From Liolophura sinensis (taxonomy: Eukaryota; Mollusca; Polyplacophora; Chitonida; Chitonidae): 64,000 bases of DNA. The notes beneath the pieces were generated by a model. The model saw only the letters and a list, made by a program, of their open reading frames with translations, was not told where the DNA came from and ran no database searches. Of this stretch, positions 25,901-31,900 are shown piece by piece. The translations under genes were made by a program, and so were the position numbers. The stretch is from positions 11,853,704-11,917,703 of the forward strand of contig NC_088304.1 of assembly GCF_032854445.1 (NCBI RefSeq). Reading direction: 5' to 3'. The stretch's first letter is position 1. Each line of letters opens with the position of its first letter.

Positions 25901-28900
25901 ATATGAGTGAAAGTAGGCTACATGTAGGTCTATATAAAGTCACAAATAACACCATGAGTCACAAGGGGCTAATTCACACATATTTTTTATATTCTATTTT
26001 ATAACGTAGGGTGAAACGTGTAAGCAGTGTAAAATGCCCAAGATTTAACAGGTATCGGAAAAATTACTGGCGCTAGGCATGACAATGGAAATCTACGTAC
26101 TGTGCTGGAAAATTACTGGCTCTAGGTACGGTGCAGGAAAATAACTGGCCCTAGGTACGGTACTGGAAAATGTCCGATACTTTAAAATTACTGGCTCTTG
26201 GTACAGTACTGTGAAACTAATGGCTCTAGGTACTGTGCTGGGAAATTATTAGCTCTAGATACGGTGCTTGAAAATTACTTGCTCTAGGCACGGTACTGGA
26301 AAAATTACTGGCTCTTGGTATGGTACAGAAAAATTAATGACTCTAGATGTGGTATTGGAAATATCTGGCTCTGGGTAAGATACTGAAAATTATTGGCTGT
26401 AGGTACAGAACTGGACAGTTACTGGCTCTAGGTACGGTGCGGAAAAATTACTGGCTCTAGGTACGGTGCGGAAAAATTACTGGCTCTAGGTACGGTGCGG
26501 AAAAATTACTGGCTCTAGGTCGGGTGCCGGAAAATTAATGGCTCTAGGTACGGTACTGCAAAAAAAATTACTGTCTCTTTGTACGGTGCCGGAAAATTAT
26601 TGGCTCTATGTACTATACTGTGAAACTACGCCTCTAGGTACAGTACTGGAAAATTACTGACTCTCGGTACCTAATGGAAAATTACTGGCTCTAGGGACGG
26701 CACTGGAAATTACTGGCTCTAGGTACAGGATTGGAAAACTACTGGCTGTAGGTACGATACTTGAAAATTACTGGTTCTAGGTACGGTGCCGGAAAATTAC
26801 CGGCTCTAAGTATTGTAGTGTGAAACTACTGGTTATAGGTACGGTACTGGGCAGTTACTGGCTCTAGGTACGGTACTGGGCAGTTACTGGCTCTAGGTAC
26901 GGTACTGGACAGTTACTGGCTCTAGGTACGGTACTGGACCATTACTGGCTCGAGGCAAATGAGCCGTATGTTTTCATTGTATTGTACAACTCATAAAACT
27001 CTCCACCTCCGTAGCCGTGTTAAAATTTTTGAATTTATGGCGTTAAAATAAACAAATAAATAAAATAAAATGCATTGAAGGCACAGTACACCCAAGTACA
27101 TTACATTTGATGAATTCAAATGAGTTTTCAACTCAATGAATTTGGGCATTTCATTACAGTTACGCTTAACACTAACTTATTGCCAGTGGGTGTAACTCAT
27201 TAACAACGGATGTAACACATTAACAGTGGATGTAATTCATTAACCACGGATGTAACGCATTAACAGTGGGTGTTACTCATTAACCACGGATGTAGCACAT
27301 TAACAGTGGGTGTTACTCATTAACCACGGATGTAGCACATTAACAGTGGGTGTTACTCATTAACCACGGATGTAGCGCATTAACAGTGGGTGTTACTCAT
27401 TAACCACGGATGTAACGCATTAACAATGGGTGTTACTCATTAACCACGGATGTAGCACATTAACAGTGGGTGTTACTCATTAACCACGGATGTAGCGCAT
27501 TAACAGTGGGTGTTACTCATTAACCACGGATGTAGCACATTAACAGTGGGTGTTACTCATTAACCACGGATGTAGCGCATTAACAGTGGGTGTAACTCGA
27601 TAACAAGTTTTGTAGAAGAAAAGCAGGACATAGAAAATCATAGATTTGTCAGCTAATTGACGAAGATCAGTTGGTTCAGTGATCAGGGAATCTGGCATTT
27701 ACTGTTTACGTGTAGGCTAACTATGCTCAACGTTTAGTATTATTATTTCGACTGTTTTATGATACATGATCTTCCATTTTCGCAGATGTGCGAGATGAAG
27801 CAAGAAAACCTGAGCCTATTCATCGGCGCCTGTATTGATCCACCTCATATCTGCGTTTTGTACCAGTATTGTCCTAAAGGAAGTTTACAGGTTTGTCCTC
27901 ATATCTCCCTACTTTACCAATTCTATTCTAAAGCCAGTTTACAGGTTTGTCTTCACATTCCTTACTTTACCAATTCTATTCTAAAGCCAGTTTACAGGTC
28001 TGTCTTCACATTTCCCTACTTTACCAATTCTACCCTATTCTAGCAATTCACAGGTTTGTCCTCATATCTCACTACTTTACCAATTCTACTTTAAAGGTAG
28101 TTCACAGGTTTGTCCTCATATCTCACTACTTTACCAATGCTACTTTAAAGGTAGTTCACAGGTTTGTGCTCATATCTCACTACTTTACCAATTCTACTTT
28201 AAAGGTAGTTCACAGGTTTGTCCTCATATCTCACTACTTTACCAATTCTACTTTAAAGGTAGTTCACAAGTTTGTCCTCACATCTCACCAACTTTACCAA
28301 TTGTACTCTAAAGGCAGTTCACAGGTTTGTCCACATATCTCTCTGCTTTACCAATTCCACTCTAAAGCCAGTTCACAGGTTTGTCCTCATATCTCACTAA
28401 CTTTACCAATTCCACTCTAAAGCCAGTTCACAAGTTTGTCCTCATATCTCACATCAATTCCACTTTAAAGACAATTTACACGTTTTTCCTCATATCTCAC
28501 TAACTTTACCAATTCTACTCTTAAGGACGTTCACACGTTTGTCCTCATATCTCACTAACTTTACCAATTCTACTCTAAAGACGTTCACACGTTTGTCCTC
28601 ATATCTCACTAGCTTTACCAATTCTACTCTAAAGGCAGTTCACACGTTTGTCCTTATATTTTCCTACTGTACTAGTTCCACTCATGTTTGTCTTCATATC
28701 TGCCTGCTTTATCAATTCTACTCTAAAGACAGTCTACATGTTTTTGTTCATATCTGCCTACTTTATCAATTCTACTCTAAAGACAGTTTACATGTTTGTC
28801 TTCATATCTGCCTACTTTACCCATTCTACTCTAAAGACAGTTTACATGTTTTTCTTCATATCTGCCTACTTTACCAATTCTACTCCAAAGGCAGTTTACA

Positions 28901-31900
28901 TGTTTATCTTCATATCTGCCTGCTTTATCAATTCTACTCTAAAGACAGTTTACATGTTTGTCTTCATATCTGCCTACTTTATCAATTCTACTCTAAAGAC
29001 AGTCTACATGTTTTTCTTCATATCTGCCTACTTTATCAATTCTACTCTAAAGACAGTTTACATGTTTGTCTTCATATCTGCCTACTTTATCAATTCTACT
29101 CTAAAGACAGTCTACATGTTTTTCTTCATATCTGCCTACTTTACCCATTCTACTCTAAAGGCAGTTTACATGTTTGTCTCCATAGCTACGCCATATTTTT
29201 GTGGGAGTCCTGTTCGTCAGTTGGTGTTAACGGTTGACATCTGTTGCTGGCAATTTGTTGTTTGAGTACCAGGTTGCCTGTTCAAAACTCCGGGCCAATG
29301 TTCAGCAGTAGCACCTGTGCTATATCCAGTAATCAATAATCAATAATAACTATAATATTCTTGCTTAATATCCACTTTCTAAATGACATCTACCAATCAG
29401 ATATCACATTTTCTTCACCTGTTATGCACTTACTCGGTGAGATGGACACCATATAGGGGGGGAATTCTTAACTGCAGCGTTAAACACCAATTTATTCAAT
29501 AATCAATCACTCAATTAGTAATTTGTTTGCTTTACCCGCCTTTAAATGCTTGTCTAATGGGTCTCTGTAGACCAACCATACAGTAACATTGCTGAAGGAA
29601 AGTGGCAATTATATATTCTCAGCTTGATTGCTTAATGATTCCATCTGATCACGTGATCATCTACTTTACTTTGCATTTAGGTGCGGTGTTGGAAAATTAC
29701 CGGCTCTAGTACTGTACTGTGAAACTACTAGATCTGGGTACGGTACTTGATCTGATCATCTACTTTGCATTTAGGTGCAGTGCCGGAAAATTACCGGCTC
29801 TAAGTACTGTACTGTGAAACTACTAGTTCTAGGTACGGTACTTGATCTGATCATCTACTTTGCATTTATTTATTCCAGGATATATTAGAAAACGACGATA
29901 TAAAACTAGACTGGGTGTTCAAATATTCCCTCATCAGCGATATAGTTAACGTAAGTATCTATGCGTTTTGGTGCCGTCTAAACCTCCGTTGACCATTTCA
30001 TTGTCTTCCTTCAATATGTTGTGCAAAATAGCTTAATCTGGACACTTCATTTTTTCTCTACGCATAATGATAAAACTCACCGCCATCATATAGATGTACA
30101 TCAAAAGATATTTTCTATGACATTAAAAGTAATCAAATAAAATTAACTGTCTGTTCGTTTTCCACAAAGTGACATTGTTGAATTTGTTCCAAAATTGTGA
30201 TACGTTTACATTCTTTTCATGATTTTTCTGCAGACCAGCAAAACAATTTTATTGATCTTTTTGACCGTGTGTCCTTCCTCTTCTGTATTAATTCAATTTC
30301 TCGGACATACTGTGGGATATAACTTTAGCGCCGCACTGCAAATGTTCACAGCGCTACCATACAACATTATCCTGTCGAGCTGACGTCATCATGGACTGAT
30401 TGCTCTTGACCACCAGCTGTTTCGATTACTTTGATATTCGTGTTCATATTGGAGCAAAGCAAAAAAATTAACATTATACTATTCGCAAACTATTTTATAT
30501 TACCACAAGCATGTAGTTGGCCGCCGTCGTATGTGAAATATTCTTGAGTACGGCGTAAAATACCAATCAAATAAATAAATACATTAGAAATGGTGCTTAG
30601 CATTGAAAGGTTTAGCATGACAGGTTAGAGCATGGAAACAGGGTTGGTTGGCCTGGTGTCAGGATAATGTGACTCGGTGAGGTGACAAGTCCTGGTGCCT
30701 TCGGCATTATACTTCAGTGGGTCAGCAGTCAGTATATATGAGTACCAAAGGGTTACTTGAAACGCAGGATTTATACATGCAGCAAAGTTTGGTCGTATGG
30801 CCACTTCGCTTATAAAACCTTGATTATTGTGTTAATCAAGTAAAAAAAACTCATATCAAACACCAAACACCATTTGGTAATCTACCAAATAGATAATCTT
30901 CAAATACTAAAAGCCATACGTGGGAAGGTCTGTCAGCTTCATGCGAATGGTCGTGGGTTTCCGAAGGGGTTTTCCCTGTTAATTTAAATAGATAAATCAA
31001 ATTCTAAACGATCGTTTTCATTTAAATGTTTTATACGCAGGACTAGCCCGGTTGGAACGCCATTCATGTGTGTTCTACTATTTGGGCTTTGCGTTGAATG
31101 GTATAGTATAGTTTGTAGTCACAAATGAATGATAGAAGATTTTGCGCTATTCAAGAAGTACAAGCTATTCCACACATTTATTAAACACAGGGGCTGTTCT
31201 TATATTTCTTGTAAATGCGATTGAATAAATGTGGATGAATAGTGTATGTAGTTAGGCTATGTCATGATAACCGTCCAGACACATAAATACCATGCAAGCG
31301 TTTTTCATGAGATGCTATTCTCTTTACATCGCATTCGCCGCTCTCTACCTTCCGCTTTACATCACTGCCACCACTAGACAAGCTTGACCTTTGGAGCCTG
31401 TGAGACGCACATAGGCTTGTTTAGGTTTAGCTTCATCACTTTCATCAATAAAATTGTTTTAGGTTTTGTTTAGAATCATGTCGTACATACTCTATAGATA
31501 AAGAGAATGCATGTGAATAAGTATTGTTTCAGACACGAATTTTTTGTATTTTCCGACATCAATTCCTGCCTCATCACCGTGACCTCAGTGACCTCGGCAT
31601 TGTTCAAGATTTCTGTACAAAATTTACCAGTAGTGGCAGTGATGTAAAGCGAAAGGTAGAGAGCGACGCATGCGCTGTAAGGAGGATGATAATTTGCACC
31701 TAAATTTGGTTGTGATACATTTCGAAATTTGTTTCAGTTAGTTACCATAGATTTTACAAAATCACGATTAAAACTTATAGGTATATCGTTCCTTTCATCA
31801 AGTATCTACGTGTTATTAGCAAACTGTTTTATCCGATAAGACAGCATTTGGTTTATATTTGTCTCTGAGGAAAGATTACTTTTCATAGTGTCTTCATCCG

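Follow-up and report, generated by a model that had tools for sequence, protein, structure and literature searches.

A minisatellite at the 5' end of an intron of the chiton Liolophura sinensis appears to have grown out of the exon beside it. The array lies in a stretch of 64,000 nucleotides (the window; NC_088304.1, positions 11,853,704 to 11,917,703; contig C10 of an assembly of 632 contigs and 609 Mb), within a gene that is, as judged from its predicted protein, a natriuretic-peptide-receptor-like guanylyl cyclase. With a probability that we put at roughly 0.85, the array is an exon-boundary minisatellite ("mirage"), grown from tandem duplication at an existing 5' splice site. The assembly is presented as that of Liolophura japonica in PMC11068029, a name that PMC12441733 gives as later corrected to L. 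sinensis. Positions are those of the window, and a slash marks the exon-intron junction. The features that carry the finding are as follows.

27786..27890, plus strand: guanylyl cyclase exon (exon 11 of the first-pass annotation), ending ...CPKGSLQ, with acceptor tcgcag and donor gtttgt
27843..27890, plus strand: founder segment, the last 48 exon bases, homologous to all units
27891..27896, plus strand: presumed true donor, GTTTGT
27891..29184, plus strand: minisatellite, 24 units (about 54 bp each) followed by a 13-bp remnant
28683..29184, plus strand: distal sub-array, with CATGTTTGT or CATGTTTTT at the junction
29879..29950, plus strand: next exon, read from the sequence, with donor gtaagt

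The 54-bp unit consists of the last 48 exon bases followed by the first six intron bases, as the first-pass annotation had proposed, and the approximately 24 copies that it counted were recovered by wrap-around alignment (24 units at 27891-29171, of 40-56 bp and mostly 53-56 bp, followed by the 13-bp partial unit); Tandem Repeats Finder (TRF) independently called the same array. Of the 48 bases at the exon end, 35 are identical to the unit consensus, while the best of 62,553 other plus-strand positions of the window reaches 26. In the comparison with shuffled sequence that had been suggested as a check, none of 20,000 mononucleotide shuffles did as well (best shuffle 25). Individual units match the exon end at 21 to 36 of 48 positions, the first unit being the closest (36/48) and a truncated unit at 28646 the most distant, and the exon copy is an outlier among the copies. 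Mean identity is 91 percent between neighbouring units and mostly about 80-83 percent between distant pairs, with the truncated unit excluded from this count. The distal units form a tighter sub-array than the rest (TRF, 9.3 copies, 93 percent matches). When 27843-28400 was searched against the genome as DNA, by a method that skips very common words, the three matches all lay within the array itself.

As in mirages, the unit spans the exon-intron boundary of its host and many but not all of the units carry AG/GT, with GT intact in 24/24 units and G at -1 in 8/24. Counting the founder's own, the 25 donor positions comprise 9 CAG, 2 CAA, 4 CAC and 10 CAT. All donors from 27891 to 28216 are CAG, including those of the six most exon-proximal copies, as are those at 28325 and 28379, and from 28686 onward all donors are CAT; these counts agree with the earlier observation that units near the exon keep CAG/GT and distal copies lose this donor consensus.

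Translated together, the founder exon and the next exon matched NPR1 chains in PDB (E 6.3e-22), and the donor at 27891 is presumed to be the true one on the evidence that both the frame and the NPR1 alignment resume at 29879. Pseudokinase and cyclase sequences follow in order on one strand, the former through the NPR1 match of these two exons and the latter through later motifs in order, which we take to be cyclase motifs. The exon was regarded as the founder in the first-pass annotation as well, and it can be so regarded because it is made of conserved receptor-coding sequence, and its protein can be aligned with natriuretic peptide receptor 1 on both sides of the junction. The acceptor of the array-bearing intron, ttattccag, sits outside the array.

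The array had also been read as encoding 18-residue repeats. A distal open frame with such repeats does exist (28401-29234), and that part of the reading stands; as a translated feature, however, the array is not supported, given its stops and frame shifts. There are 10 stop codons when it is read from 27891, and the exon frame, open through unit 1, shifts at unit 2, stops inside unit 3 and is not continuous with the distal frame. Because unit 2 measures 53 bp, only the second donor (27945) could add 18 in-frame residues near the exon, and the farther donors of in-frame phase lie behind stops. As far as can be judged from the frames, the repeated peptide is a trace of exon ancestry and not a translated product.

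A second mirage was found further downstream in the same gene, with these features.

36798..36990, plus strand: cyclase-domain exon ending ...LHDVYK, founder of the second mirage
36991..37796 (end approximate), plus strand: second, more degenerate mirage with a unit of about 30 bp, CATGACGTCTACAAG/GTTTGTGTCGTTTTA
41104..41293 (right end approximate), plus strand: following exon, in which the protein continues from 36990

This second array, called by TRF and by unit comparison, repeats CATGACGTCTACAAG/GTTTGTGTCG after the exon, whose tail agrees with the unit at 16 of 18 positions (best elsewhere in the window, 14). Its mean column entropy is 0.97, compared to 0.34 in the first array, with the boundary of the second array set one base off (36991 for 36990), and it would appear to be the older of the two. 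The window holds further minisatellites at 26184-26955 (29-bp unit), 27184-27598 (40 bp), 32237-32474 (20 bp) and 54620-55648 (61 bp), as well as a 46-bp array with CATTTACCCATTGCAG, acceptor-like, at 42883-43200.

The first-pass annotation had considered an array of this size, still attached to its exon, to be unusual; this did not hold within the genome, where similar arrays recur in other genes. Three tandem AGGTRAGT motifs with spacers of 30-60 gave 2,544 genome matches, compared to 1,337 for the reversed, 1,010 for the permuted and 1,023 for the permuted reversed pattern. In the first 5.47 Mb of contig C1, the listed places, grouped by eye, made 22 AGGTRAGT arrays and 4 arrays of the permuted pattern. 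All 22 were fetched and the open reading frames (ORFs) at their 5' sense ends were scanned against Pfam (21/22; that of L026, 15 amino acids, was left out), with 19 antisense ORFs as controls (those of L028, 14 amino acids, L036 and L037 were left out). Matches at E<=1e-3 were found at the 5' sense end of 6 of the 21 arrays and at none of the 19 antisense controls (Fisher p 0.021), the six being ankyrin (L020), Branch (L025), SNF2 (L028), DUF3535 (L030), fucosidase (L038) and Fe-hydrogenase C-terminal (L039). At E<=0.01, the counts were 7/21 and 1/19 (L033, TAF8_C; p 0.046). The L030 and L038 matches, a HEAT match of L029 and an AAA_33 match of L043, one of the arrays outside this region, fall just under the Pfam curated cut-off.

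PDB searches linked L029 (2e-11) and L028 (2e-18) to a helicase-like protein, L038 (2e-11) to tissue fucosidase and L039 (2e-8) to [FeFe] hydrogenases; we take the first two to be Mot1/BTAF1-like and the last to be CIAO3. L030, L029 and L028 share a strand and a stretch of about 21 kb (C1:4178252-4199451). The order of L029 and L028 is that of the matched residues along the helicase chain (1201-1252 and 1513-1557, respectively), and L030 is presumably ahead of both, given where we believe DUF3535 to be located; these are probably three mirages in one Mot1/BTAF1-like gene. The exon part agrees with the unit at 22/23 bases in L020, 51/54 in L021, 38/39 in L025, 21/21 in L028, 11/12 in L029, 43/51 in L030 and 32/35 in L039; in L038, just 3 bases are common to both and the unit barely enters the exon. 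Upstream of L021, at C1:2078153-2083989 (L051, start of L021), lie about 6 kb of 54-bp units with TTTCTGCAG/GTATGT that are both acceptor-like and donor-like; this CAG/GTATGT array was followed to its start and a founder exon was not found there.

Eight donor arrays obtained with the stronger donor pattern CAGGTAAGTA outside the C1 region were also examined. L045 attaches to a BTB exon (2e-12), presumably LZTR1-like, L043 attaches to a P-loop exon (AAA_33, 1e-4), and L040 is probably attached to a coding exon that has no Pfam match. No exon was seen at the other five of these eight (L041, L042, L044, L046 and L047).

Mirages appear to form at acceptors as well. An acceptor-like pattern gave 537 matches and its control 47, a count raised by a single 54-bp array and by a 53-bp repeat that is dispersed. 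We chose three of the acceptor arrays by hand and not at random; two of them attach to an exon and L048 has no clear link to one. A glutamate-transporter exon lies at the end of L050 (PDB 8e-26), and L049 (C2:27338900-27340900, minus strand) leads up to a 74-bp cyclin H exon (PDB 7.7e-8) that is flanked on both sides, with at least 22 copies of the acceptor boundary (56 bp) 5' of the exon and at least 7 copies of the donor boundary (about 101 bp) 3' of it, counting in each case the exon's own copy, which is the last of the former and the first of the latter. Both arrays run to the ends of the 2-kb stretch and their true copy numbers may be larger. A tandem repeat family (about 53 bp, with TTTCTGCAGGTGTAAAGTACAACATCC) is dispersed, with places on C1 and C3, and looks like a mobile or satellite family and not like a mirage. 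On contig C99 (108,685 bases), COX1 is present seven times, at intervals of about 15.5 kb; this is a mitochondrial concatemer and probably an assembly artefact.

Other explanations of the first array were considered. While other minisatellites are frequent in the window, and an unrelated satellite could have come to lie beside the exon by chance or through assembly error, the homology to the exon is far beyond chance and the same architecture is found at other loci, which leaves this explanation with a practically negligible probability. The first-pass annotation had named tandem duplication of exon sequence containing AGGT as a route to intron gain or growth. Gain, in which such a segment duplicated in tandem would have made this very intron (the Rogers model), is consistent with the ACAG/GTTTGT present in the unit, as the model needs, and PMC4974935 describes gains of such a kind. 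However, a donor is found at the same codon boundary in seven paralogous exons (L004, L005, L007, L008, L009, L010 and L012), no TRF array was found at the corresponding junction in any of the seven, and the acceptor in use lies outside the array; two further paralogues, L002 and L003, have no donor at that boundary and read through, and L011 spans the next exon only. Because the seven exons share this boundary with a donor and none has an array, it is an old intron that grew and not a new one that was gained: by this comparison the intron predates the array, which lengthened it. Growth is therefore the part of the earlier proposal that stands, and we consider gain very improbable here.

The gradient of donors from CAG to CAA, CAC and CAT could reflect selection that actively destroys decoy donors. 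Column -1 is indeed the most variable of the 54 columns in the first array and the sole column with all four bases, and column +5 is the most variable in L025 and L029. On the other hand, the permutation p for donor-column variability in the first array is 0.057, ten exon-assigned arrays together give a combined p of 0.14 and ten others one of 0.78, neither of which is significant, and the six donor copies nearest the exon are intact; we therefore hold such selection to be unlikely. This test ran on 20/24 arrays (L023, L026, L027 and L033 were left out), with L021 counted as exon-assigned on its exon match and without a Pfam match, and the arrays of the AGGTRAGT pattern had been chosen for intact donors and are thus biased against decay; in L039, 46/57 junctions remain CAG/GTGAGT. 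Decoy donors would seem to change at about the same rate as the rest of the unit, with no significant excess or lack. The opposite possibility, that the ladder is functional and alternative donors within the array yield regulated isoforms, could draw on the CAG/GT at 9/25 junctions, where 7 of the 9 consensus donor positions match, and on the in-frame gain of 18 residues from the second donor. Yet the donor columns are no more conserved than the rest of the unit, most further donors are frame-shifted or behind stops and the insertion would land in the pseudokinase hinge region, and a functional ladder is even less likely than donor destruction. The decoys seem to be tolerated, and the outermost site would therefore win.

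Growth of a mirage at an existing splice site could thus have proceeded as follows. In an ancestor of the chiton, a segment over the 5' splice site, made up of 48 bases of exon and no fewer than 6 of intron, would have been duplicated in tandem, by slippage or unequal exchange as we infer. Because splicing would have kept using the outermost donor, the extra copies would have fallen into the intron and been nearly neutral; they could then have multiplied and been locally homogenised like other minisatellites, and an old intron would have been extended at its 5' end. Homology to the exon, the founder, the older intron position, recurrence in other genes and the lack of a significant donor bias can all be read from the sequence, and continued use of the first donor (27891) is inferred. 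Several points weigh against this account. Unit identity, after dropping with distance, climbs back to 86-87 percent in the farthest-apart pairs, a misfit with simple one-way growth. The excess of the donor motif over the control patterns is modest, and the stronger donor CAGGTAAGTA in three tandem copies gave a weak result (24 compared to 14 in the control). Moreover, 14/21 scanned sense ORFs have no Pfam match at E<=0.01, and there is no proven exon there.

We lean slightly towards a broader proposal, namely that exon-boundary minisatellites are genome-wide and ongoing in this chiton and lengthen introns from both ends, and that the spliceosome ignores dozens of intact splice-site copies beside exons. 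If true, this would rank among the major routes by which introns grow, and it would be a natural experiment in splice-site choice. That mirages occur in several genes sampled from one mollusc, beside donors as well as acceptors and, for the cyclin H exon, on either side, suggests an old or repeated route of intron growth, and the arrays can be viewed as natural constructs that confront the spliceosome with tens of near-identical sites. RNA-seq of Liolophura sinensis has been deposited, according to the data availability statement of PMC11068029, and the rule of splice-site choice is therefore directly testable. Gene prediction in such genomes may take array copies for exons. Specialist interest lies in the recurrence in a mollusc and in the doubly flanked cyclin H exon.

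The original description of amphioxus mirages is reportedly that of Canestro 2002. In the relevant sections of PMC3087553, mirages are minisatellite-like duplications of intron-exon boundaries, 5' and 3', described from a handful of amphioxus genes, where RT-PCR (reverse-transcription PCR) suggests that splicing is undisturbed. The mirages covered there (Adh3 and the globins BflGb6 and BflGb9) are like the chiton arrays in being tandem duplications over the exon-intron boundary, either 5' or 3', with AG/GT signals in many units; in amphioxus, the boundary units are also less homogenised. The host here, by contrast, is a mollusc and not a cephalochordate, a single gene within the window carries two mirages, further ones lie in sampled genes, and one chiton exon is flanked on both sides; while the amphioxus mirages in PMC3087553 come with RT-PCR and haplotype data, the chiton arrays are known as DNA sequence only. 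Intron gain by tandem duplication in the potato RdRp gene, as outlined in PMC4974935, likewise involves a duplicated stretch that includes splice signals, but the chiton intron is not new, its position being common to seven paralogues. Caenorhabditis elegans CeRep25B, in the account of PMC4039745, is also an intronic minisatellite near splicing decisions; it is a 24-base repeat present in several genes, with clusters on chromosomes III and II, whereas the chiton unit includes the end of an exon. The literature searched yielded no description of arrays of this kind from chitons or any other molluscs. In structure, the chiton arrays are mirages as defined in amphioxus, and what is new is the phylum and their recurrence.

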